Origin: Bacteroidales bacterium
GTDB lineage: Bacteria; Bacteroidota; Bacteroidia; Bacteroidales; UBA10428
NCBI GenBank assembly: GCA_016938235.1
Contig: JAFGVA010000184.1
Location: forward strand, 1 to 63,609
Direction of reading: 5' to 3'
DNA length: 63,609 nt
Part shown: in pieces, positions 4,400-21,523 of the stretch
Layout of the letters: every line of letters starts with the position of its first letter
How positions within the stretch are numbered: the first letter of the stretch is position 1
Translations under genes and position numbers: made by a program
Notes under the pieces: generated by a model
What the model was told of the DNA's origin: nothing
Databases searched by the model: none
Seen by the model: the letters and a program-made list of their open reading frames with translations, nothing else

Positions 4400-5812
4400 T
4401 TAAAATTGGAAATAAATAAACTGGCTGTTATTAAAAACACCTGAATTTAAAATGAAAAGAATTGTTACTGCATAAAAGAGATATCTTATTGTAGGTCTTT
4501 TACCTAAAAATACGATTTCTTTTGCTTGGTTATACTCTTCTATAATATCAACGGTTAATAAAGTTACTAAGGCAAGTATACTATAAAAGAATATTGATGG
4601 ATTACCTACAAATAAGGGCTTGGAAAAGTCAAAAGCTCCTTTAATGATATGCATAGCCTGAGATATGTCCTTTGACCGGAAAATTGAAAATGCAACAACT
4701 GCAATAATAAATACAACTACCGGATATACAAATCTGAAAATTTTAAATTTAAACAGAGTTTTAAAGGCATTTTTCTCAAAAACCTGAATTGCCCCATGAA
4801 TAGCTCCCCATAATATAAAAGTCCAGTTAGCACCATGCCATAATCCGCTTATAATAAATGTTGCAAGTAAATTAATACTGACTCTGACTGAACCTGCCCT
4901 ATTTCCTCCTAGCGGAATATATACATAATCCCGAAACCAGGTAGAAAGGGAGATATGCCATCTTGACCAAAAATCTTTGATTGATCTGGCCAGATATGGC
5001 CTATTAAAATTAATCATTAGATCAAACCCGAAAAACTTTGCAACACCTATTGCGATATAAGAATATCCTGCAAAATCACCATATATCTGAAAGGCAAAAA
5101 ACAATATAGCCAGAATATATGTTACTCCTGAATAAGCTTCATAGTTGGAAAATACAGATTCAACATAGATTGCAAGTCTATCTGCAACAACTAATTTCAT
5201 AAAAAAACCTTTGAGCATATATTTTAAGCCTTGTGAAGCATACCCGCATGTAAAAGTCCTATGTCTATAAAACTGGGGTAACAGATTTGATGCTCTTTCA
5301 ATGGGGCCGGCTACTAATTGAGGGAAGAAACTAACAAAAGCAAAAAAGGCGATTATATCTTTTGTCGGTTCTAACTTTCTTTTATAAATATCTATAGAAT
5401 AGCTTAATGTTTGGAATGTGTAGAAACTAATCCCAACAGGCAAAATAATATTTAGCCTGGTAGCTTTAATAGGATGTCCTAACAAGGTAAATGCATCGGC
5501 GAAACTCTCAGCAAAGAAATTGAAATATTTAAAGAAGCCTAAAAAGCCCAGGTTTACAAGTATACTGGTTAATAGCAATAATTTCCGTTTCCTTTTATCA
5601 TCTGTCTGATGCAATCCAATTCCAATAAAGTAGTCAACAAATGAACTAAAAACTATTAATGAAAGAAATCTCCAGTCCCACCAGCCATAAAAAAGATAAC
5701 TGGCTGCAAGCAAAAGAAAGTTCTGCAGTTTTAAGTTTCTATTGGTCACAAACCAATACAAAATAAACACTACAGGTAAAAAGATTGTAAATTCTAACGA
5801 ATTGAAAAGCAT
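4400..5812 (-). CDS. MBOAT-family O-acyltransferase (AlgI-like)
   Basis: The 470-residue polytopic protein is typical of AlgI/DltB-type MBOATs. It shows RWHISLSTWFRDYVYIPLGG around residues 285-303 and the catalytic-His motif SGLWHGANWT with His326. These proteins pass an acyl group from a cytoplasmic thioester donor through the membrane to a periplasmic SGNH partner, which here is the next gene. The first 330 residues align without gaps to the other MBOAT of the locus (11383-12828), including the N terminus MLFNS, so the two are recent paralogs. The acyl donor may be acetyl-CoA or a carrier-bound acyl group; see the E1/E2/ACP module at 16000-20077. Confidence 0.9.
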   Translation of the reverse strand: MLFNSLEFTIFLPVVFILYWFVTNRNLKLQNFLLLAASYLFYGWWDWRFLSLIVFSSFVDYFIGIGLHQTDDKRKRKLLLLTSILVNLGFLGFFKYFNFFAESFADAFTLLGHPIKATRLNIILPVGISFYTFQTLSYSIDIYKRKLEPTKDIIAFFAFVSFFPQLVAGPIERASNLLPQFYRHRTFTCGYASQGLKYMLKGFFMKLVVADRLAIYVESVFSNYEAYSGVTYILAILFFAFQIYGDFAGYSYIAIGVAKFFGFDLMINFNRPYLARSIKDFWSRWHISLSTWFRDYVYIPLGGNRAGSVRVSINLLATFIISGLWHGANWTFILWGAIHGAIQVFEKNAFKTLFKFKIFRFVYPVVVFIIAVVAFSIFRSKDISQAMHIIKGAFDFSKPLFVGNPSIFFYSILALVTLLTVDIIEEYNQAKEIVFLGKRPTIRYLFYAVTILFILNSGVFNNSQFIYFQF

Positions 5813-10314: not shown

Positions 10315-11379
10315 TTACTGGTAAATCAGTGATTGAGAAAAAAGTTGATTTTCAGTAGGTTTTTCATGTAAGCAATTGTTTGCTGTTTTTGGTTGTAAAA
10401 TGGAATCAATCATAAATTTCGAAATATAGGGTTGAAAATGCATCATGTCCGGGTAGTTATATTCATCATTGGTAAATCGGTTAATCCCGGAAAAATCAAA
10501 TAAACGTTCTCCAAATAGTTCCTGCAATATGGTTTGATCATCAAAGCTAAATTTCTTCTGATCATACAATGGGGTTATTACAATATAATAGTTAGATGAA
10601 TGCTTGTTCAGAATATCTTTAATTCTGTTTACCATTTCTTTCTCTGAATCCGAAATCTGATTTTCAAAAAAAGTTTGCTCCGCAGGTCTTTTATACAAAA
10701 TACCTGTTTCTTTCAGGGAGTCTATTATTGCTATTAAACTATCGCTTCTATCAACCTTAGAATAGACAGAAAGTACATGTTCATTACAACGATGTTTGGG
10801 ATCGTTTGTCGCTGGATCAGAATTCCAATAGGGTTGGCCTTCAATCTTTTTATATCCTAAAAGGATTTTTATTTTATCAATGTTAATATGTTTATAAAAG
10901 CTTTTAAAGTGGGATATAATAGCTCTATATCTTTTTTGTTTTGTAATTAAATAATGATCTGAATCGATTTTGCCCTCACCCAGAAAAGTGTTATCTGCAT
11001 CTATATAAATCACTGCATTACTTATTTCGTATCCTAATGTATCTAACAATTCAAGTTTATTTTTTATGCCTTCAATTTTCTCACCCCAATTGGCATAATG
11101 AAAGAAAGATGAATTAGGAATAACTTTATTTAGATAACAGGCATAAAGGCTTACAGTTCTGCTACTTCCAAGAATAAAGGAGTTATATTTATTTTTTGAA
11201 TTTAGAAGCTTTTTTGTTGAGAGATCCCCGAGCCGTTGAAAATCGTACTTCCATGAATAATCTTTTTTTGCACCAAAATCCATGTATGGATCTGCTATTA
11301 TGTATGGTACAATTATTATAATTAAAACTAAGAATGGGAAGGCAATAAACCTTAATATATTTTGAAAAAACTTGTACAT
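10315..11379 (-). CDS. SGNH-like membrane-anchored protein, partner of second MBOAT
   Basis: The 354-residue protein has an N-terminal helix (about residues 10-28) and an SGNH-like periplasmic domain. Block I is FILGSSRTVS, with Ser72 in the nucleophile position (GSSR where the paralog has GDSR). Block V is YPDMMHF, with Asp311 and His314. About 40 residues follow block V, which the 3482-4396 protein lacks. The gene begins 3 bp after the MBOAT gene 11383-12828. This repeats the MBOAT-SGNH order of the first pair, but the SGNH proteins are much more diverged than the MBOATs, suggesting a different acceptor position on the glycan. Confidence 0.65.
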   Translation of the reverse strand: MYKFFQNILRFIAFPFLVLIIIIVPYIIADPYMDFGAKKDYSWKYDFQRLGDLSTKKLLNSKNKYNSFILGSSRTVSLYACYLNKVIPNSSFFHYANWGEKIEGIKNKLELLDTLGYEISNAVIYIDADNTFLGEGKIDSDHYLITKQKRYRAIISHFKSFYKHINIDKIKILLGYKKIEGQPYWNSDPATNDPKHRCNEHVLSVYSKVDRSDSLIAIIDSLKETGILYKRPAEQTFFENQISDSEKEMVNRIKDILNKHSSNYYIVITPLYDQKKFSFDDQTILQELFGERLFDFSGINRFTNDEYNYPDMMHFQPYISKFMIDSILQPKTANNCLHEKPTENQLFSQSLIYQ

Positions 11380-11382
11380 AAT

Positions 11383-12828
11383 TTAAAATTGAAAATAAAT
11401 AAATTCTTGTTGATTCCCACTAAGCAAAATTATTGCTGCAATTATTGCATAATATAAAACAAATCTAAGCGGCCTATTCCGGTTTAAAGCAAGTTTCTCC
11501 AACGCGTATTGATTTTCTCTTCCTAACCATTCAATTACAATAAAGATTATTATAAGAATTATTACTTTTATATACTCCATGTAGATATCTAGCTGAATAT
11601 ATGAAAGCGGATTTTTAAAAATTCCTGTAATATATTGAATCGCATGTTCGATACTCTCAGCCCTGAAAAAAATCCAGGCAAAAACAGTTAAACTAAAGGT
11701 TAAAAGCATAAATAAAAATTCTCTGAAATCCGGAAAAAATTTCCCTTTTGCTACGACATCAATGTTATTCCGGTTTTTCTTTGCTAAAAGAAGAGGTAAA
11801 AAGTAAACGGCGTTTAATGCTCCCCATACAATAAAAGTCCAATTTGCACCATGCCAGAATCCGCTTACAACGAAAATAATAAAGGTATTTCTTATTTTCA
11901 TCCAGAGTCCTCCACGACTACCTCCAAGTGGAATATACAGGTAATCTCTAAACCAAGTTGATAGTGAAATATGCCAACGTCTCCAAAATTCTGCTATATC
12001 CCTTGAAAAATATGGGAAAGCAAAATTTCGCATTAGGTCAAAACCAAACAGCCTTGCTGTTCCAATGGCAATGTCTGAGTAGCCTGAAAAGTCACAATAA
12101 ATTTGAAAAGTAAAGAATAAAGCACCTAACACTAATATACTTCCTGAATAATCAGTTGAATTATTAAAAATTTGATTTGCAAACTCTGCACAATTATCTG
12201 CAATGACAATCTTTTTGAATAATCCCCAAAGGATTTGACGCATCCCATCAGTGGCTTTAGTATAATCAAAACTGCGTTTATTATAAAATTGAGGAAGAAG
12301 GTTTGTTGCCCTCTCAATTGGTCCTGCTACAAGCTGAGGAAAAAAACTCACAAAAGCAGCAAAAGCAATGAAGTCTTTGGTAGGTTCAAGCTTTCTTTTA
12401 TAAACATCGATAGAATAGCTTAATGTTTGAAATGTATAAAAACTAATTCCAACAGGTAAAATTACATTCAAAGAATTTGCATTGATTTCTTTTCCAAAGA
12501 ATGAAAAAGCCGAGACAAAATTATCGAGGAAAAAATTATAATACTTAAAGAACCCTAAAAAGCCCAGGTTAACCAAAATACTTGTCAGTAATAAGAGTTT
12601 TCGTTTTGTCTGATTTTCCTGCTTCAATAAACCTAATCCAACTAAATAATCAACGAATGTACTAAACAGTATCAAGGATAAGAACCGCCAGTCCCACCAT
12701 CCATAAAACACGTAACTTGCCAGTGCTATAAGCAGGTTTTGAGTCTTTAAATTTCTATTTATTACAAACCAATAGAGTATGAAAACAATAGGTAAGAATA
12801 TGGCAAAGTCAATGGAGTTGAATAACAT
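11383..12828 (-). CDS. MBOAT-family O-acyltransferase (AlgI-like), second copy
   Basis: The 481-residue polytopic protein has the same landmarks as the MBOAT at 4400-5812, and at the same residue numbers: RWHISLSTWFRD with His286 and VSGFWHGANWT with His326. It should pass an acyl group across the membrane to the SGNH protein encoded immediately downstream. The two MBOATs differ mainly after residue 330. Two MBOAT/SGNH pairs in one locus suggest two distinct acylation sites, or two acyl groups, on the same polysaccharide. Acyl-donor identity is unknown. Confidence 0.9.
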   Translation of the reverse strand: MLFNSIDFAIFLPIVFILYWFVINRNLKTQNLLIALASYVFYGWWDWRFLSLILFSTFVDYLVGLGLLKQENQTKRKLLLLTSILVNLGFLGFFKYYNFFLDNFVSAFSFFGKEINANSLNVILPVGISFYTFQTLSYSIDVYKRKLEPTKDFIAFAAFVSFFPQLVAGPIERATNLLPQFYNKRSFDYTKATDGMRQILWGLFKKIVIADNCAEFANQIFNNSTDYSGSILVLGALFFTFQIYCDFSGYSDIAIGTARLFGFDLMRNFAFPYFSRDIAEFWRRWHISLSTWFRDYLYIPLGGSRGGLWMKIRNTFIIFVVSGFWHGANWTFIVWGALNAVYFLPLLLAKKNRNNIDVVAKGKFFPDFREFLFMLLTFSLTVFAWIFFRAESIEHAIQYITGIFKNPLSYIQLDIYMEYIKVIILIIIFIVIEWLGRENQYALEKLALNRNRPLRFVLYYAIIAAIILLSGNQQEFIYFQF

Positions 12829-14056: not shown

Positions 14057-15234
14057 ACCTTCAGTCCCATAAAATTAAGAAGCGGCGTTGTATAATTCTT
14101 ATAATTGAAATTTTTCATTCCGATTTCATACGATCTTTTGCCCATTTCCTCCAATTCATTACTATTTTGTATTGCTTTTTGCATTTGTTGTGAAAACATT
14201 TCCACATCGTACTCCTCAGCGAAAAAAGCAGATGAATCATCAAAATATTCTACCATTTCACCTATCCGTGTCGAAATAATCGGTCTCTTTGAAGCACAAT
14301 ATTCAGCAACTTTTTGAGGAAACCTTGATGTGTCTTGTTTAGTTGGTCTAAGGGGAATCAGGAGTGCGAATGCATTTTTATAAAGTTGAATTAATTCTTT
14401 ACTATCAACACCCGATAATACTTTCACCTTTGAAGCTAAATTTCTTTTAACAAGAACACTTTCTAAATCTATTATATCCTGATTGTATCCATTTACAACC
14501 AAATACAATGATGTATTATGATCAGAACCTAACCGTTCAAAAGAGTCAAGAATAAAATTAACAACATCCAGATATGATAAAGAACCACAATATAAAAAAT
14601 AATCAATATCGGGATTTCTCGTTAAAGCATCGTATTGATCAAAATCAACAAGAGGTGGTATTTTGATTAAAGAAGTTTTTGCTGATTTGGAACGTACATG
14701 GTTGTTTAAACTTTCACTTATAGTAATTACTCCACTTACAAACTTAAACACTTTATTATCTAGGAAATAGTCATTTATACGTGTTAATAATGAAGAACGA
14801 TAATCTAAACTTGAACGTAACTCAAAATATACTAAATATGAGTTTTTTCTAAACAGCTTAAATATAAAAGAATAAAAAACTATGAAACTAAAACTACAGG
14901 AATAAATAATTAAAGAATCGAATTCTCTAATATTCTTTATTACATAAAAAAACTCATTTATCGTTCCCAAAAACCTGGAATATACCTTTTTCAGATAATT
15001 ATGAGAAGAGAATACGTTTGGTGCAGTTGTTTTATATTTAATCCCATCAATTTCCCCACATTTTTGAAGGTTTTCATTTATAGTATTCTTTCTGACAGAT
15101 CTATCGCTAATTACTGTAAAACCATGATTATCAACTGTAAAAGATTTGCCCATAAGCAATAACTTTTGGATAGGGGCTGTACCCAAAGGAAAGCTCATCA
15201 TTCCAAGGGTTAAAATGTTATACTTCTTTTGCAT
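14053..15234 (-). CDS. GT4-like glycosyltransferase
   Basis: The 393-residue protein has GT-B architecture. The first half is long and variable with a hydrophobic stretch around SLIIYSCSFSFIVFYSFIF, which could be a membrane-association patch. The donor-binding half contains DYFLYCGSL, LLIPLRPTKQDTSRFPQKV and EYCASKRPIISTRIGEM, where the usual Glu-x7-Glu is replaced by a KVAEYCASKRP variant also seen in some GT4 enzymes. It overlaps the upstream hexapeptide acyltransferase gene by 17 bp and the next GT4 gene by 4 bp. Donor and acceptor are unknown. Confidence 0.75.
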   Translation of the reverse strand: MQKKYNILTLGMMSFPLGTAPIQKLLLMGKSFTVDNHGFTVISDRSVRKNTINENLQKCGEIDGIKYKTTAPNVFSSHNYLKKVYSRFLGTINEFFYVIKNIREFDSLIIYSCSFSFIVFYSFIFKLFRKNSYLVYFELRSSLDYRSSLLTRINDYFLDNKVFKFVSGVITISESLNNHVRSKSAKTSLIKIPPLVDFDQYDALTRNPDIDYFLYCGSLSYLDVVNFILDSFERLGSDHNTSLYLVVNGYNQDIIDLESVLVKRNLASKVKVLSGVDSKELIQLYKNAFALLIPLRPTKQDTSRFPQKVAEYCASKRPIISTRIGEMVEYFDDSSAFFAEEYDVEMFSQQMQKAIQNSNELEEMGKRSYEIGMKNFNYKNYTTPLLNFMGLKV

Positions 15235-15817
15235 GTGGTATTAATTTGTAAATATCAATTTCTTTCACCTTTTTCGCGGGACTTCCGGCTAATAAAATAT
15301 TACTTTCTGTAAAAGACTTATTAACAGTACTGTTGGCAGAAACAGCAATATTATTACCTATCTTAATATCTCCAAATATTTTTACCCCGGGAGCAATATA
15401 CACATTATCACCCATCATAGGGGCTTTTGTATTACCCCCACTGGCACCAATATTAACACATACATGGATACGACAATTTTTCCCTATTCTGGTATTTGGA
15501 TTTATTACAATAGTACCGTAATGTGCGATTGATAATCCCGGACCAAATACGTTAGGTGGAATCGAGAAATTAAGTAAGAGTGATAATTTGATAAATTTCC
15601 TGTAAACAAAAAAATATCGGATTTTCCCCAAAACAGAATTGTATTTACAGTTTTTCAAATATTCAACTTTCCGTAGTTGTCTTTGAAACATTAAAATTTT
15701 GTCAGTTTGAAGAAGATGCTTTACCAATAGTTTCAGACGATTATAATAGTCTGTCCCAAGCAAAGCTTTTCTATCCTCTTCTAAATAATATTTATAGCTT
15801 GAAAATGAATCAATCAT
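15218..15817 (-). CDS. serine acetyltransferase-like hexapeptide acyltransferase
   Basis: The 199-residue protein has a helical N-terminal half and then a left-handed beta-helix of hexapeptide repeats. The active-site region is GPGLSIAHYGTIVINPNTRI, with His in the CysE-like position, followed by VCVNIGASGG and VYIAPGVKIFG. CysE-like proteins inside polysaccharide loci usually O-acylate a sugar or sugar nucleotide rather than serine, and context favours that here. It is the first gene after the ACP-AcpS/E2/E1 module, with a 182-bp gap, and overlaps the next glycosyltransferase gene, so it is a candidate acceptor of the module's acyl product. Confidence 0.8.
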   Translation of the reverse strand: MIDSFSSYKYYLEEDRKALLGTDYYNRLKLLVKHLLQTDKILMFQRQLRKVEYLKNCKYNSVLGKIRYFFVYRKFIKLSLLLNFSIPPNVFGPGLSIAHYGTIVINPNTRIGKNCRIHVCVNIGASGGNTKAPMMGDNVYIAPGVKIFGDIKIGNNIAVSANSTVNKSFTESNILLAGSPAKKVKEIDIYKLIPHAKEV

Positions 15818-15999: not shown

Positions 16000-16842
16000 T
16001 TATTTAGTTTTAAGAATTAGATAATTATACAGAAGAAAAGCAATTATCCCAATATTTAATACCAAGGAAATAATAACCCATATATTATTTTTTTTGCTAC
16101 CTGCTTTTTTTATAAGTTTTTCCAATTCTATTTCTTTTTTATTAACCTTACTTTCGAAATTCTTTTGAATGGCTCTAATTTCATCATTTTTTGAACCAGC
16201 TAAATGATTCTCATTTTTAATAGCTATTGCAACAGCGTATTCTTCATCATGTGAAATTGATAATGAAAAATTACCGAAATAGGGTTGCATAAATGTATTA
16301 TATTTTATCTGAATATCTTTAAAAGGCTTACCTTTAAAACTACTGTCTGATTTAACTATGGCTTCTTTCGCAGCAAATTTTCCGGCAAATGAATGAATAG
16401 GGGAGGATTTTAGTAAGCAATAGGAAATTTCTTCCTGACTGAAATTTTCAGTGTAAAAACTATTTTCTCTATAATCATCAACAACAGGTAATTGAACTAT
16501 TTTGATGATATCAATACCTACATTTAAATTATCGCCGATATTACCTGTTATTACCTGCTTGTTTAATGCATCAGCAGAACCAATGTTGACAGACTCAGAC
16601 TGTTTTACACTTTTGGTAATAGTTGAAATGCCATTTATAGTATTCAGCAAATCTCCAAAGGTTGAAATAACTGTAAAATCATCTATTTTATATCCCATAT
16701 CGGCAAGTTCTCCATACATTAAATGGAGTTTAACCGAACCTTGAATCACACTATTGTCAATAGATGTATTCTCTGATAAAACAGTACCGGAAGGTAAAAA
16801 CTTACTTACAACTTGTTGGATCTTATTAATATCTGCTTTCAT
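16000..16842 (-). CDS. membrane-anchored fusion of acyl carrier protein and AcpS-like phosphopantetheinyl transferase
   Basis: The 280-residue protein contains three parts. Residues 1-75 look like an acyl carrier protein: helix-loop-helix spacing with QGSVKLHLMYGELADMGYKI, where Ser36 takes the phosphopantetheine position (GSV instead of DSL), and a TFGDLLNTI third helix. Residues 105-210 match AcpS: NVGIDIIKI (Asp111), SFAGKFAAKEAIVK (Lys159, Glu160) and LSISHDEEYAVAIA. Residues 215-250 are charged and probably coiled, and 254-275 form a single C-terminal helix that would anchor it with the domains in the cytoplasm. It starts 9 bp after the E2 gene. The fusion suggests a self-priming carrier at the membrane. 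That it accepts acyl groups from E2 is my inference. Confidence 0.75.
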   Translation of the reverse strand: MKADINKIQQVVSKFLPSGTVLSENTSIDNSVIQGSVKLHLMYGELADMGYKIDDFTVISTFGDLLNTINGISTITKSVKQSESVNIGSADALNKQVITGNIGDNLNVGIDIIKIVQLPVVDDYRENSFYTENFSQEEISYCLLKSSPIHSFAGKFAAKEAIVKSDSSFKGKPFKDIQIKYNTFMQPYFGNFSLSISHDEEYAVAIAIKNENHLAGSKNDEIRAIQKNFESKVNKKEIELEKLIKKAGSKKNNIWVIISLVLNIGIIAFLLYNYLILKTK

Positions 16843-16851
16843 AACTAATTT

Positions 16852-18150
16852 TTAAAAACCTTCTAAACAATAGTTGCAAAGAATCTTTTCATTTGAGTTT
16901 TGGTCAATTACTTTTAAGAAATGAATATTCTCGTTCATGGATTTTGATACTCTCCGATGACATTTAAAACATTCCCGTTCGCTTTTTTGTTCCAGCTCTG
17001 TTTTTCTGATCTCATTGCTGTAGCTCTCAATGCGGCTTTTTAGTTCTTTAAGAAAAACTGCAGCATATTTACCTTCTGTAACTCTGTGATCGAATGTTAA
17101 GGATAAAGTAAACCGATTAAGTTGCTTATCGATGGAAGAAACTCCCAAAATACCAGAATTATCCATGTTGATTAATGGTGTAAAAAAGCTTATATCTGAA
17201 TCGGATAAATCAGTTATGGTAAAGCTAATTCCGGTTAAATCAGTCGTATCAATTTTTTCTTCGAGATACTTATTGGAAAGAACAAGAACTTCATCCTCAA
17301 TTCCTTTTATGGAAAGCTTATCAGTATCTTTTATTTTTAATACTTTAAGACCCTTATCCATATCCATGGCGATTCCCACATTTACATCATTATATACAAA
17401 TATAGAATCGTCCTGAAAGAAGGAATTGAGTTTTGGATATTTTCTCAAAAGCCTCGAAGTTTCATAAACAATTATCGGAAGTAAAGACTTCTTTAACTGA
17501 AGTTCACTTTCTTTAATAAATTCAAAAATACCGGAACAATTAACGAAGGTGTTAACAACACTATTTAAACCTGCAGATTGTACTGAAGATAGATATTGGA
17601 TTTCCTTCTTCTTCTGTTTCGGAATTTTTTCTTCAGTTACTGCCTCAGTAATTATTTTTGTTTTTTTAGTTTTTGGTTGGCTTATTGTTGCTGGTTTTTC
17701 AATTGTATACTCTATTTCATGGGGATCAATAATATCTTCAAGTGTTACAAAATCTTTGCCTGCAAAGGTTTCTTTACTTAATTTATTTTCTTCGATATAT
17801 TTTTCGGCATTGATAGAAAAAAGCGTAGTTACTACTACTGTTGATTCAGGTTTAACTTCAGTAGCAGGTTTAATAGATTCTTTTGAATCTGATTTTTGTT
17901 CGATATATTTTTCGTTATATATATTTGCAACACAACGTCCAATTTCAACTTCGTCACCAACAGAACAATTATAAATGATATAACCAGTAGTACTTGTTTG
18001 CAACGACATGGTTGTTTTTGATGTTTCAATTTCAATAACTTCAGCATCTTTTTCGACAAAATCATTGTTATTATAATTCATTTCCAGAACCACAACGCTT
18101 TCATCATTCACTGATTCTTGTGGGACAATAATACTAGCTATTGGCTTCAT
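16852..18150 (-). CDS. 2-oxoacid dehydrogenase E2 acyltransferase-like protein with C-terminal zinc-ribbon-like tail
   Basis: The 432-residue protein has an N-terminal lipoyl domain (1-80) with Lys45 in IETSKTTMSL as lipoylation site. A peripheral-subunit-binding-like segment covers about 108-142, then a linker rich in Lys/Pro/Thr, and an E2 catalytic domain covers about 190-375. The active-site motif reads TFDHRVTEG: His355 is kept, but the Asp of the usual DHRxxDG is Glu359. Residues 394-428 hold CFKC and CNYC, a probable zinc ribbon not normal for E2. It overlaps the E1 gene by 17 bp. In the standard reaction E2 passes the acyl group from E1 to CoA. No E3 (lipoamide dehydrogenase) gene is nearby. 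Confidence 0.85.
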   Translation of the reverse strand: MKPIASIIVPQESVNDESVVVLEMNYNNNDFVEKDAEVIEIETSKTTMSLQTSTTGYIIYNCSVGDEVEIGRCVANIYNEKYIEQKSDSKESIKPATEVKPESTVVVTTLFSINAEKYIEENKLSKETFAGKDFVTLEDIIDPHEIEYTIEKPATISQPKTKKTKIITEAVTEEKIPKQKKKEIQYLSSVQSAGLNSVVNTFVNCSGIFEFIKESELQLKKSLLPIIVYETSRLLRKYPKLNSFFQDDSIFVYNDVNVGIAMDMDKGLKVLKIKDTDKLSIKGIEDEVLVLSNKYLEEKIDTTDLTGISFTITDLSDSDISFFTPLINMDNSGILGVSSIDKQLNRFTLSLTFDHRVTEGKYAAVFLKELKSRIESYSNEIRKTELEQKSERECFKCHRRVSKSMNENIHFLKVIDQNSNEKILCNYCLEGF

Positions 18151-20077
18151 AAAAATGTCTTTTTATTGAGTTTACTATTGAATTGCTTGTTGGCAACACC
18201 TGTTCTTCCAATGATTTTGCTGAGGGTATAGGGATAGGCAATGAACCTATCCGAAGTGTTGAAACATAATATGGAATTTTGCTTACAACATTTGAGATTA
18301 TCTCACTTCCAATTCCACCGTCAATACTTCCTTCTTCAACTGTTACAAGTTTTCGTGTTGTTTCGACAGAAGAAACTATATCTAAATAATCAATTGGATG
18401 TAGTTTGGTAAGTATTATCACTTCCGCCTTAAATTCATATTCTAAAAATAATTTCTCGATACTATTTATTACATGATGCGCAACACCTCCATAAGTAACA
18501 ATTGTTAAATTGGGTTGTGATAATACAGGAAGGGCTTTAACAGTGGGGTATTCCTCATTATTAGCAATAAACTTATAATTAGTTATTTGAGGAGGGCCAA
18601 TGTATTTACCGTAATCTGTTTTATTTTCAATTATAATAGTTGGGTGTTTTTCTTTTAATACATTATTAAAAATTATCTCAGGATTAATAAATGTATTAAT
18701 TGCCAACAATTTAACATTATCAATACCAAGAAGAAAGCGTTCTAATGATTGTGAGTGAGTTGGCCCATAGCCTCTTCCACCACCCATTGGTGTTCTTAAA
18801 ACCATAGGGCATGATACTTTCTTATTGTACATGTGGTGAATTTTGGAAGCATGATTTACTATCTGATCAAATGCCAGTGTTACAAAATCACCGAACATTA
18901 TTTCAACAAAAGGCTTAAAACCGGCAAGTGCCAATCCATTTGCAATGCCAGTTATGGCTCCCTCACTAATTGGGGTGGTTAGTACTTGTTGAGGGAAATT
19001 AAATGAAAGATTTTTAGCGACCTTAAATGCCCCCCCATAGGGAGATTTTACATCCTCGCCAATAAAGACAACTTCCTTATTCTTAAGTGCGTTATCAAAA
19101 AACTGGTTCATTAAGTTAACCTGTCTTTGTTTAATATTTTGCAGCTCTGTCCAGGTTTTTTCTTCAGAAACCACCAGGTTATCAGAATAATATTCTTTTA
19201 GGTCAAGTTCATCCTGCCCATCAAAATCAGCTATAATATTATCAACTTTCTTAATGATCGGCTCCATGTATTCATTATACAAATGGGGCTCGTTTTTTGA
19301 GAATTTATTTATAAAGTCTCTTTCTCTATATTTATTTACTTCACTAACATCTCTGTCATCGTCTCCTTTGGAATGCGCATTTAACCGGTATAAATTCACT
19401 AAATGAAATGCCGGTTTCTGATTTTTTCTAATATATTCAATCGATTCGCTTGCATTTTCCAAAAGTTTATTCTCATCCCAAACATCACTATCAAAGGTCT
19501 TAATACCGAATGCTTTAGCTCTATCCACGATATTCCCGGCTAAATTGTCTTTTTGCTCCGTTGATTGTGCATAACCATTATTTTCACATACTATAAGCAA
19601 AGGAAGTTCCCAAAGTGATATTATATTCATTGTTTCATATAAAGCACCTTCTCCTAAGGTACCGTCTCCAATATATACAACTCCTATATTTCCATTGCCG
19701 CGTAGTTTATTTGCAAGAGCATGTCCTGCTGCCATTGGTACTATTCCTCCCTGGATACCATTTGAGTAAAAATTCCCATTTTGTAAATGCTGACTGCTAC
19801 CGATACCACCGCAAATCCCTTTTCCTTTACCCATTAGCTCGCCAATAAGACCTTTGCAGTCTTTAGTAAAAGAAATATAATGTCCATGACAGCGGTGATT
19901 AGAAAAAACAAAGTCCTGTTTTTTTAATTGTCCGGCAAAGGCAACTGCTGATAATTCTTCTCCAACACATGTATGTACCGTGCCATTTAGTTTTCCCCGT
20001 GAAAAAAGATTCAAGAAACTTTCTTCAACATATCTGATTAACAGGGCTTCCTTAATTTGACGATGGTTTATTGCCAT
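18134..20077 (-). CDS. thiamine-diphosphate 2-oxoacid dehydrogenase E1, fused alpha-beta subunits
   Basis: The 647-residue protein joins an E1 alpha part (about 1-320) and an E1 beta part (about 330-647), as in Bacteroidota branched-chain-type enzymes. The alpha part has the acidic/His loop SNHRCHGHYI and the thiamine-diphosphate motif starting GDGTLGEGALYETMN (137-151) and ending ENN (Asn166, Asn167). The beta part has FIGEDV, TTPISEGAITGIANGLALAG and RTPMGGGRGYGPTHSQS. It decarboxylates a 2-oxoacid and transfers the acyl group to the lipoyl arm of E2, encoded next with a 17-bp overlap. Its place in the middle of a polysaccharide locus is unusual. The substrate (pyruvate, branched-chain or other 2-oxoacid) cannot be assigned from sequence. 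Confidence 0.9.
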   Translation of the reverse strand: MAINHRQIKEALLIRYVEESFLNLFSRGKLNGTVHTCVGEELSAVAFAGQLKKQDFVFSNHRCHGHYISFTKDCKGLIGELMGKGKGICGGIGSSQHLQNGNFYSNGIQGGIVPMAAGHALANKLRGNGNIGVVYIGDGTLGEGALYETMNIISLWELPLLIVCENNGYAQSTEQKDNLAGNIVDRAKAFGIKTFDSDVWDENKLLENASESIEYIRKNQKPAFHLVNLYRLNAHSKGDDDRDVSEVNKYRERDFINKFSKNEPHLYNEYMEPIIKKVDNIIADFDGQDELDLKEYYSDNLVVSEEKTWTELQNIKQRQVNLMNQFFDNALKNKEVVFIGEDVKSPYGGAFKVAKNLSFNFPQQVLTTPISEGAITGIANGLALAGFKPFVEIMFGDFVTLAFDQIVNHASKIHHMYNKKVSCPMVLRTPMGGGRGYGPTHSQSLERFLLGIDNVKLLAINTFINPEIIFNNVLKEKHPTIIIENKTDYGKYIGPPQITNYKFIANNEEYPTVKALPVLSQPNLTIVTYGGVAHHVINSIEKLFLEYEFKAEVIILTKLHPIDYLDIVSSVETTRKLVTVEEGSIDGGIGSEIISNVVSKIPYYVSTLRIGSLPIPIPSAKSLEEQVLPTSNSIVNSIKRHFYEANS

Positions 20078-20315: not shown

Positions 20316-20873
20316 CTAAGTATTTTCTTCAGGCCTCCAGAAGTATCTTTCCACGTTTTCCCTAAACTCTATATCAAGAATTTTATTGGGTACACCCATT
20401 GATATCGATTTTGGAGGAATATCCTTATTCACCATTGTATTAGCTCCGACTACTGAGTTATCACCAATTTTCACTCCGCCAACAATAACAGCACCGGGAG
20501 CAAATCTCACACAATTCCCAATAATAGGAGATCCTCCCCTTTCTGTAGCAAATGTAACGTTGTGGGTTAACATTACATTGTCTCCAATAATAGCATTCTC
20601 GTTTATTACTATCCCGTGACCATGCCATATTTTTATTCCATAACCTATTTTAGTTCGCTTTGGAATTTCAATCCTGACTTTACGTGAAATTATATTGTAT
20701 CTTATTCCGATAACAATGGAGATTATTCTGTTTTTTTTATTTGAATAATGATTCGCTATTCGATACCATACCAGGAAACGAAACAGAGGATTTGTTATGT
20801 ACATTTTAAGAAATGCTTTGAAACCTTTTTTACCATTGTATCTAAACAAATCTGATTTTATGTATTCCCACAT
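20316..20873 (-). CDS. serine acetyltransferase-like hexapeptide acyltransferase
   Basis: The 185-residue protein has a short helical N terminus and a left-handed beta-helix with the CysE-type motif YGIKIWHGHGIVINENAIIG, then MLTHNVTF and CVRFAPGAVIVGGVKIGDNS. It is a trimeric acyltransferase that most likely modifies a sugar or its nucleotide precursor. It is one of three hexapeptide enzymes in the locus. The 238-bp gap between its stop codon and the E1 start is the largest internal gap between 12965 and 25438. Confidence 0.8.
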   Translation of the reverse strand: MWEYIKSDLFRYNGKKGFKAFLKMYITNPLFRFLVWYRIANHYSNKKNRIISIVIGIRYNIISRKVRIEIPKRTKIGYGIKIWHGHGIVINENAIIGDNVMLTHNVTFATERGGSPIIGNCVRFAPGAVIVGGVKIGDNSVVGANTMVNKDIPPKSISMGVPNKILDIEFRENVERYFWRPEENT

Positions 20874-20890: not shown

Positions 20891-21523
20891 CTATTTTATA
20901 TTTCTGATAACTTTACAAGGGTTACCGGCAGCTATAACATTTGCCGGGATATCTTTTGTAACCAAACTATTCGCTCCTATTACTGAGTTTTTTCCAATGG
21001 TAACACCTTTAAGTACCGTCACATTCATTCCTAACCATACATTATCCTCAATAACCACAGGCGCTGAAACATCTGAAGCTGTTTGATTATTCCATCTTTT
21101 ATCCGGATCCAGTTCATGAAAACCATAGTCTGAAATAAAACAATTAGCTCCTACCAGTACTTTTTCTCCAATTGTAATCTTTTCCGCAACAAGTATAACA
21201 GCTCCACTAATGCCGCATCTGTCTCCAATTATTAATTCTGCACCTTTTTGAATGGTAGATATAGTATTTTTTTTGTTTATACCAGCCATATTCATGTAGG
21301 ACGTTGAAATAAAGGTGCAATTTTTACCAATATTCATTTTACTAAACCGAAATCTGATGAAATAAGAATTCCCATAAAATTTGATCGGTTTATGAAATTT
21401 CACACCAAATACTTTAAGTCTGATCCGAATAAAAAATGTCCAGAAACTTCGATTTATTAGTAGCTTAAAATTTCGAATTTTATTATAAGCTACTCCTCTT
21501 AAATCCAATTGATTAATATTCAT
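20891..21523 (-). CDS. WbbJ/MAT-like hexapeptide acetyltransferase
   Basis: The 210-residue left-handed beta-helix protein contains GISGAVILVAEKITIGEKVLV, ISDYGFHELDP, and VVIEDNVWLGMNVTVLKGVTIG followed by GANSLVTKDIPANVIAAGNP. That C-terminal signature is typical of the maltose/galactoside-acetyltransferase branch (LacA, WbbJ, VioB-like). It should O- or N-acetylate a sugar of the repeat unit from acetyl-CoA. It lies 17 bp upstream of the CysE-like gene. Confidence 0.85.
   Translation of the reverse strand: MNINQLDLRGVAYNKIRNFKLLINRSFWTFFIRIRLKVFGVKFHKPIKFYGNSYFIRFRFSKMNIGKNCTFISTSYMNMAGINKKNTISTIQKGAELIIGDRCGISGAVILVAEKITIGEKVLVGANCFISDYGFHELDPDKRWNNQTASDVSAPVVIEDNVWLGMNVTVLKGVTIGKNSVIGANSLVTKDIPANVIAAGNPCKVIRNIK

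Follow-up and report, generated by a model that had tools for sequence, protein, structure and literature searches.

The window is the whole 63,609-nucleotide (nt) stretch analysed here, contig JAFGVA010000184.1 of assembly GCA_016938235.1, from a Bacteroidales bacterium. At positions 16000-20077, on the reverse strand, it contains a trio of genes that probably forms a glycolyl-S-ACP synthesis module within a polysaccharide locus. The trio is composed of a fused thiamine diphosphate (ThDP) E1, a lipoyl-bearing E2, and an acyl carrier protein (ACP) fused to an AcpS-type phosphopantetheinyl transferase and a membrane anchor. The membrane ACP would supply a hexapeptide transferase that glycolylates the polysaccharide. 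Glycolyl-S-ACP is the most likely product because E1 and E2 group with natural-product enzymes reported to load a glycolyl unit on an ACP. The substrate, product, and acceptor proposed here are deduced from enzyme kinship and gene order.

The E1 gene (18134..20077) is a single open reading frame (ORF) of 647 amino acids (aa) that joins alpha and beta portions in one chain and carries the Pfam domains E1_dh, Transket_pyr, and Transketolase_C. E2 (16852..18150) has Biotin_lipoyl and 2-oxoacid_dh domains. Its lipoyl K45 (codon 18016-18018) and the H355 of its acyltransferase domain (17086-17088) are kept in 15/15 E2s, from 14 trios and a divergent locus, L058. E2 also has a stretch like the peripheral subunit-binding domain (PSBD), recognised by eye and not reported by Pfam. 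Residues 394-428 (16867..16971) make up a zinc-ribbon-like tail of the form CxxC..CxxC (Cys4), which probably binds zinc. All four cysteines are present in the same 15 E2s and in none of the four natural-product or six housekeeping-type E2s aligned. The fusion protein of 280 aa is encoded at 16000..16842, as recognised by its Pfam ACPS domain, hydropathy, and predicted fold. The E1 and E2 reading frames overlap by 17 bp, and 9 bp separate E2 from the fusion gene. An initial annotation, made from the letters alone, had described this arrangement, and the ORF coordinates agree with its overlap and gap. Pfam domains and alignment support its fused E1 and its E2 with Lys45 and His355. Its membrane-anchored carrier-AcpS fusion is borne out by Pfam for AcpS, by profile and fold for the ACP, and by hydropathy for the anchor.

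By phylogeny and motifs, E1 and E2 appear to belong with antibiotic-cluster enzymes of the glycolyl-transferring "two-component transketolase" type. In a tblastn search of plasmids, E1 matched 651 records; the best, with 44% across its full length, was RenH from the renieramycin symbiont. E1 shares 45% identity with RenH over 653 columns, and E2 shares 32% with the partner enzyme RenI. In Streptomyces sp. NBC_01136, an ACP-E1a-E1b-E2 set (89, 311, 334, and 359 aa) lies next to MbtH and condensation-domain genes; a similar group of E2, ACP, E1a, and E1b occurs close together in Paenibacillus polymyxa YT9. The E1 tree was made up of 14 trio rows, four natural-product rows (RenH, Streptomyces, S. 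cattleyicolor, and Paenibacillus), and nine aco/pdh-type rows; its reference rows include no Nap/Qnc sequence and no branched-chain 2-oxoacid dehydrogenase (BCKDH) of known function. The Nonomuraea E1, of which there is an alpha chain only, was left out; the motif GVQG is present there. Trio and natural-product rows separate from the aco/pdh-type rows at 100/100. The motifs G(I/V)QG, HSKGDD, and GYGPTHSQ occur in 18/18 of the former and 0/9 of the latter. At the position of E1 Q109 (codon 19751-19753), seven of the nine outgroup rows have V, one has L, and one has T; of five human pyruvate dehydrogenase (PDH) chains, four have V and the fifth M. H61 was considered as a diagnostic residue and dropped, as several Aco-type rows share it.

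In the E2 tree, the trio E2s, L058, and RenI are grouped at 99/98. The lipoyl motif is SK in 14/14 trio and 4/4 natural-product E2s and DK in 6/6 housekeeping-type E2s. In the 15 E2s that include L058, the Asp of the HRxxDG motif gives way to E in 13, T in one, and A in one. Scores of E1 and E2 against the NCBIfam PDH and SucB models are far below the cut-offs. The initial annotation had taken the pair for a 2-oxoacid dehydrogenase, and these trees and motifs place it elsewhere.

Enzymes of the NapB/NapD, QncN/QncL/QncM, and SclQ1-4 type convert a ketose phosphate to a glycolyl unit on an ACP, according to passages of two papers (PMC6335953, PMC7570522). Passages of the scleric acid paper derive SclQ1-4 (76, 305, 338, and 386 aa) from QncN/QncM/QncL and describe conversion of ketose phosphate to an activated glycolic acid unit (PMC6335953). 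The Streptomyces set has the same gene composition as SclQ1-4. The corresponding part of the dnacin paper gives a similar role to napB/napD homologues (PMC7570522). The trio resembles the QncN/QncM/QncL, NapB/NapC/NapD, and SclQ1-4 sets, as outlined in such excerpts, in combining ThDP E1-like alpha and beta portions, a lipoyl E2-like partner, and a dedicated ACP. A system of this E1/E2/ACP logic is thus already described, contrary to the view in the initial annotation that none of this composition was known. The original paper on the glycolicacyl-S-ACP platform reportedly appeared in PNAS in 2012. The trio differs from that platform in its polysaccharide context, with no nonribosomal peptide synthetase (NRPS) seen beside it, in its fused E1, in its Cys4-tailed E2, and in an ACP that is fused to AcpS and tail-anchored. 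RenH and RenI are likewise a fused E1 and an E2 that overlap in the same order. Unlike the trio E2, RenI has no Cys4 tail, and no ACP-AcpS match was found in 19 kb of the renieramycin cluster.

The first 75 residues of the fusion protein (16618..16842) are predicted to be an ACP, because Ser36 is invariant, the HHalign score exceeds those of shuffled sequences, and the predicted fold is ACP-like. Ser36 (codon 16735-16737) is conserved in 17/17 aligned ACP-AcpS sequences and is also present in the divergent L058 protein. HHalign against canonical ACPs gave a score of 24.9, with a maximum of 15.8 among 100 shuffles, and places Ser36 on their DSL serine. In an AF2 model of the domain (pLDDT 82), Ser36 starts helix II. 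Of 134 Foldseek matches to this model, the best 50 consist almost entirely of ACPs and carrier domains (query TM 0.57-0.74).

The AcpS-type domain occupies about residues 107-208 (16219..16524; PF01648, E 2e-7), with the Pfam ACPS domain spanning residues 108-206. PF01648 and TIGR00556 score above cut-off, and the acpS equivalog cut-offs are not reached. In structure and sequence, the best PDB matches are the phosphopantetheinyl transferase (PPT) domains of fungal fatty acid synthase (FAS; 2wat, 2was), with bacterial AcpS also close. A single C-terminal transmembrane helix, the putative tail anchor, is encoded at 16006..16083; hydropathy peaks at 2.54 over residues 254-272, and the model has a helix at 254-279. 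A hydrophobic C-terminal segment is present in 17/18 ACP-AcpS sequences, including that of the window, and absent from L058. L165 (8943-9275) and L166 (8139-8462) each have a stand-alone AcpS-like gene of about 107-110 aa that closely resembles the AcpS part of the fusion; E1 and E2 are absent, and the surrounding genes look polysaccharide-related by eye. Two other loci, L060 and L099, were rejected as ordinary acpS genes on reading.

The trio is a conserved cassette. Fourteen trios have the same E1-E2-ACP-AcpS order, one of them (L163) with its E1 start cut by a contig edge. Gaps range from -17 to +4 between E1 and E2 and from -28 to +16 between E2 and the ACP gene. Median E1 identity among trios is 62%; the closest pair is 98% identical (near-duplicates), and another pair is 91% identical. 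Among 244 genomes of the family of Niastella, 11 match the ACP-AcpS profile, 10 at full length. Those 10 are also the genomes that the profile of the special E2 picks out, scoring 467-673 bits against 152 for the next best. In nine of these 10, E1 and E2 lie directly upstream of ACP-AcpS, although the contig edge truncates E1 in G1248 (L163). Co-occurrence and adjacency, the checks that the initial annotation had named, thus came out in favour of a linked set.

Among 98 other relatives, full-length ACP-AcpS was found only in G087, and four more match the AcpS domain alone. In a phylum sample of 395, the only other full-length ACP-AcpS among the matches listed was in G168, whose contig is L059, from an Ignavibacteriae metagenome-assembled genome (MAG); under that classification, L059 and the window therefore share a phylum. 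A contig scan covered the best 80 of at least 189 relatives, all 80 of which were tested by tblastn with E1, E2, and the ACP domain; only L053-L059 were used. Full trios were recovered from L053 (Bacteroidales MAG), L055 (Chitinophagaceae MAG), L057 (Niastella populi, Chitinophagaceae), and L059, and trios interrupted by contig ends from L054 and L056. Outside L053-L059, only L108 matched among the 80 loci, with a weak E1 match. The AcpS-only loci L165 and L166 and the ACP-AcpS locus L160 were not counted as trios. A single-sequence contig scan gave 29 stretches and no relative. Among 395 genomes of the class, that of the window alone matched the E2 profile at 1e-50, and a search of plasmids with the L057 ACP-AcpS found no match.

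The trio is not housekeeping, because the other E1- and E2-like genes of the window genome (contigs C219, C235, C154, and C79) match it only distantly, at no more than 30% identity for E1 and 35% for E2. Their presence bears on a concern raised in the initial annotation, that the pair might be the organism's sole housekeeping dehydrogenase. That annotation had also noted that no E3 is nearby. No E3 adjoins the trio, and the only lipoamide dehydrogenase above the family cut-off in the genome is on contig C211.

The recurring acyltransferase partner of the trio is a hexapeptide enzyme. The upstream side is visible in 12 of the 14 trios and cut in G087 and L163. A gene was called WcaF-type where BLAST matched it at 49-77% to the L055 protein, itself above the NCBIfam WcaF-family cut-off. 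Such a gene immediately precedes E1 in 7/12 (L055, L057, L156, L158, L161, L162, and L164) and is one gene away in 3/12 (L053, L157, and L159). Another hexapeptide gene is upstream in the remaining two, directly in the window and with two genes between in L059. In L163, a WcaF-type gene lies beyond the ACP end on the opposite strand. By BLAST labels, a GT2 gene directly follows the trio in 9/14, and homologues of both GDP-mannose dehydratase and GDP-fucose synthase are further downstream in 7/14. By eye, the genes after the G087 trio do not appear glycan-like.

In the window, the hexapeptide gene directly upstream of E1 (20316..20873; PF00132) is the candidate user of the acyl-ACP, as hexapeptide genes are upstream of E1 elsewhere. 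A second (20891..21523; Pfam) is a distant match to the L055 WcaF-type protein (31% over 110 columns), and a third (15218..15817; PF00132) is downstream of ACP-AcpS. Two MBOAT genes (PF03062), at 11383..12828 and at 4400..5812, may encode alternative acceptor enzymes; the latter is beside a DUF1574 gene (PF07611), presumably SGNH-like. These five genes are on the reverse strand. Of the acyl-modifying neighbours in the initial annotation, two MBOAT, one Acyl_transf_3, three hexapeptide, and one DUF1574 gene stand, and the second SGNH gene (10315-11379) could not be confirmed because it has no Pfam match. Pfam was run on 24 ORFs in the 710-28786 part of the window; four lack a match above cut-off, no NRPS is among the 24, and genes of related loci are mostly labelled by BLAST or eye only. 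The window also has Wzx-, Wzc-, and Wza-like genes.

Several other genes accompany these loci. At the end of the window's polysaccharide locus (710-2193), an HAD phosphatase gene overlaps a UbiA prenyltransferase gene. In L053 (6114-6797) and L159 (2474-3175), a TylF-type methyltransferase gene separates the hexapeptide gene from E1, and a TylF-type fragment recognised by eye is upstream of E1 in L016 (1-540). Either the sugar or the acyl group could be the target of this methyltransferase. In L051 (13573-16221), B12-binding radical SAM and ATP-grasp genes are directly upstream of an Ignavibacteriae trio. Elsewhere in the window genome, contig C106 holds a cluster like those of NRPSs or polyketide synthases, because its large ORFs (2329-2685 aa) carry several phosphopantetheine-binding domains.

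Locus L058 (4667-10845), from a Sphingomonadales MAG (UBA2369), is a variant with hexapeptide genes in which E2 and an anchorless ACP-AcpS are transcribed divergently from FkbH and a free ACP. It has no E1, and E1 matches elsewhere in that genome do not exceed 32% identity. A search of 246 genomes of its order for further copies of the L058 E2 returned one, its own. The L058 E2 keeps the lipoyl domain and Cys4 tail and lacks the PSBD-like stretch. Because the tail is kept without that stretch and without E1, its docking partner may be the ACP-AcpS side and not E1. FkbH enzymes are described, in excerpts from the literature, as makers of glyceryl-ACP. Sphingans such as gellan bear glyceryl esters. 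The L058 variant may make glyceryl- rather than glycolyl-ACP, and this one genome suggests a wider hydroxyacyl-ACP theme.

In the proposed pathway, the AcpS domain would phosphopantetheinylate Ser36 of its own ACP, as its domains and invariant residues imply. From kinship with NapB/QncN-type enzymes, the ThDP E1 would cleave xylulose-5-phosphate or fructose-6-phosphate, or possibly hydroxypyruvate, to dihydroxyethyl-ThDP and pass the glycolyl unit to the E2 lipoyl group. E2 would then transfer glycolyl to holo-ACP, and the host lipoamide dehydrogenase would re-oxidise the lipoyl group. The tail-anchored ACP would keep the glycolyl group on the inner side of the membrane. Gene order suggests that the hexapeptide transferase, WcaF-type in most loci, would move it onto a sugar of the growing polysaccharide. 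The initial annotation's dedicated module that charges a membrane ACP in polysaccharide loci is the best reading; it is conserved and not housekeeping, and its 2-oxoacid chemistry is set aside on the trees and motifs.

A number of observations weigh against glycolyl-S-ACP synthesis for a hexapeptide enzyme. L058 has E2 and ACP-AcpS without E1. In G1205, ACP-AcpS is not adjacent to E2; two other ORFs precede it, and E2 is on the edge of another contig. Neither the window nor L059 has the WcaF subtype upstream. The natural-product E1s do not form a single clade; RenH stands beside the trio at only 83/67. The E2-tree join of the trio with all natural-product rows is 90/88, and the tool flags long branches. 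The link to Qnc, Nap, and Scl runs via RenH/RenI and clusters recognised by architecture, not via those sequences themselves. The ACP domain is known by profile and predicted fold only: its HHalign probability against canonical ACPs is 45, its Foldseek matches reach E 0.04 at best, and a Pfam scan of the fusion protein detects the AcpS domain alone and no N-terminal ACP. A PDB profile search with eight sequences gave one ACP among five matches (E 1.2). QncM-like ACPs match only weakly (22 columns at probability 4.6), although none of 100 shuffles scores as high.

An ordinary 2-oxoacid dehydrogenase E1/E2 pair, charging the ACP with the acyl group left by decarboxylation of pyruvate or a branched-chain 2-oxoacid, is quite unlikely. 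Pfam and NCBIfam do put E1 and E2 in the PDH superfamily, and PDB sequence matches are of PDH, 2-oxoglutarate dehydrogenase (OGDH), and BCKDH type, but the split from PDH/Aco-type rows in trees and motifs, the low PDH and SucB scores, and the replacement by Q109 of the residues seen in outgroup and human chains argue against it. Use of the proposed acyl-ACP by an MBOAT instead of a hexapeptide transferase, on the model of the Dlt pathway, is unlikely. The window carries two MBOAT genes, and in passages of PMC9338922 the Dlt MBOAT takes its acyl group off a carrier protein; yet hexapeptide genes recur around the trios, and tblastn with the window MBOATs at 1e-3 found no match in 21 related loci, where a divergent or more distant MBOAT could escape.

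The remaining alternatives part from glycolyl-S-ACP synthesis at the relay or at the product. E2s usually use coenzyme A (CoA), and L058 has its E2 and ACP-AcpS beside FkbH and a free ACP with no E1, so that E1 and E2 might yield acyl-CoA while ACP-AcpS serves another thioester of the same pathway, co-regulated but without a single relay. Complete co-occurrence and tight gene order make this very unlikely, as do related natural-product sets that act on an ACP in passages of PMC6335953 and PMC7570522. The least probable of the four is a product that is a glycolipid or other small molecule. The enzyme relatives do make small molecules, a PS_Dcarbxylase gene follows the L051 trio, and the genes after the G087 trio are not glycan-like, with the upstream side cut; against this stand the recurring GT, hexapeptide, and GDP-fucose genes around the trio and the Wzx-, Wzc-, and Wza-like genes of the window.

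The trio or its L058 variant shares features with three further systems. In the alpha subunit of fungal type I FAS, a carrier and a phosphopantetheinyl transferase are in one polypeptide. Its PPT domain is the best match of the trio's AcpS part; unlike it, the trio fusion has only 280 aa and no FAS domains. The Dlt system (DltA-DltC-DltB, AcpS) likewise charges a carrier protein in the cytosol, after which a membrane enzyme acylates a surface polymer, in passages of PMC9338922. Unlike in Dlt, the trio carrier is fused to AcpS and a membrane helix, its hexapeptide partner is more constant than an MBOAT, and no adenylating ligase (DltA) beside the carrier is among the scanned window ORFs. The tetronate set, composed of an FkbH-like glyceryl-S-ACP synthase, an ACP, and an E2-like acyltransferase (AbmA2-A4, Agg4) in excerpts of its literature, resembles the L058 variant. 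The L058 E2 differs in its lipoyl domain and Cys4 tail and lies amid polysaccharide-type genes.

No description of this trio was found in the open-licence literature, searched by titles and abstract openings and partly by best matches only. Within that literature, the chemistry is already known, and the setting and the self-activating, tail-anchored carrier architecture are new. The trio is present in a named strain, Niastella populi (L057), which makes the idea directly testable. A broader proposal is tentative: a general bacterial carrier-protein system might hydroxyacylate surface polysaccharides, with a self-activating, usually tail-anchored ACP-AcpS charged via a Cys4-tailed E2 with glycolyl (trio) or FkbH glyceryl (L058) and serving hexapeptide transferases at the membrane. 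If so, the acyl decoration and the sugar nucleotides would both be drawn from the same sugar phosphates. The trio adds a carrier protein with its own phosphopantetheinyl transferase and membrane anchor to the known repertoire. If the glycolyl reading is true, antibiotic-type C2 loading chemistry would move into cell-surface polysaccharide biosynthesis, and the trio would be a genetic marker for glycolylated exopolysaccharides.

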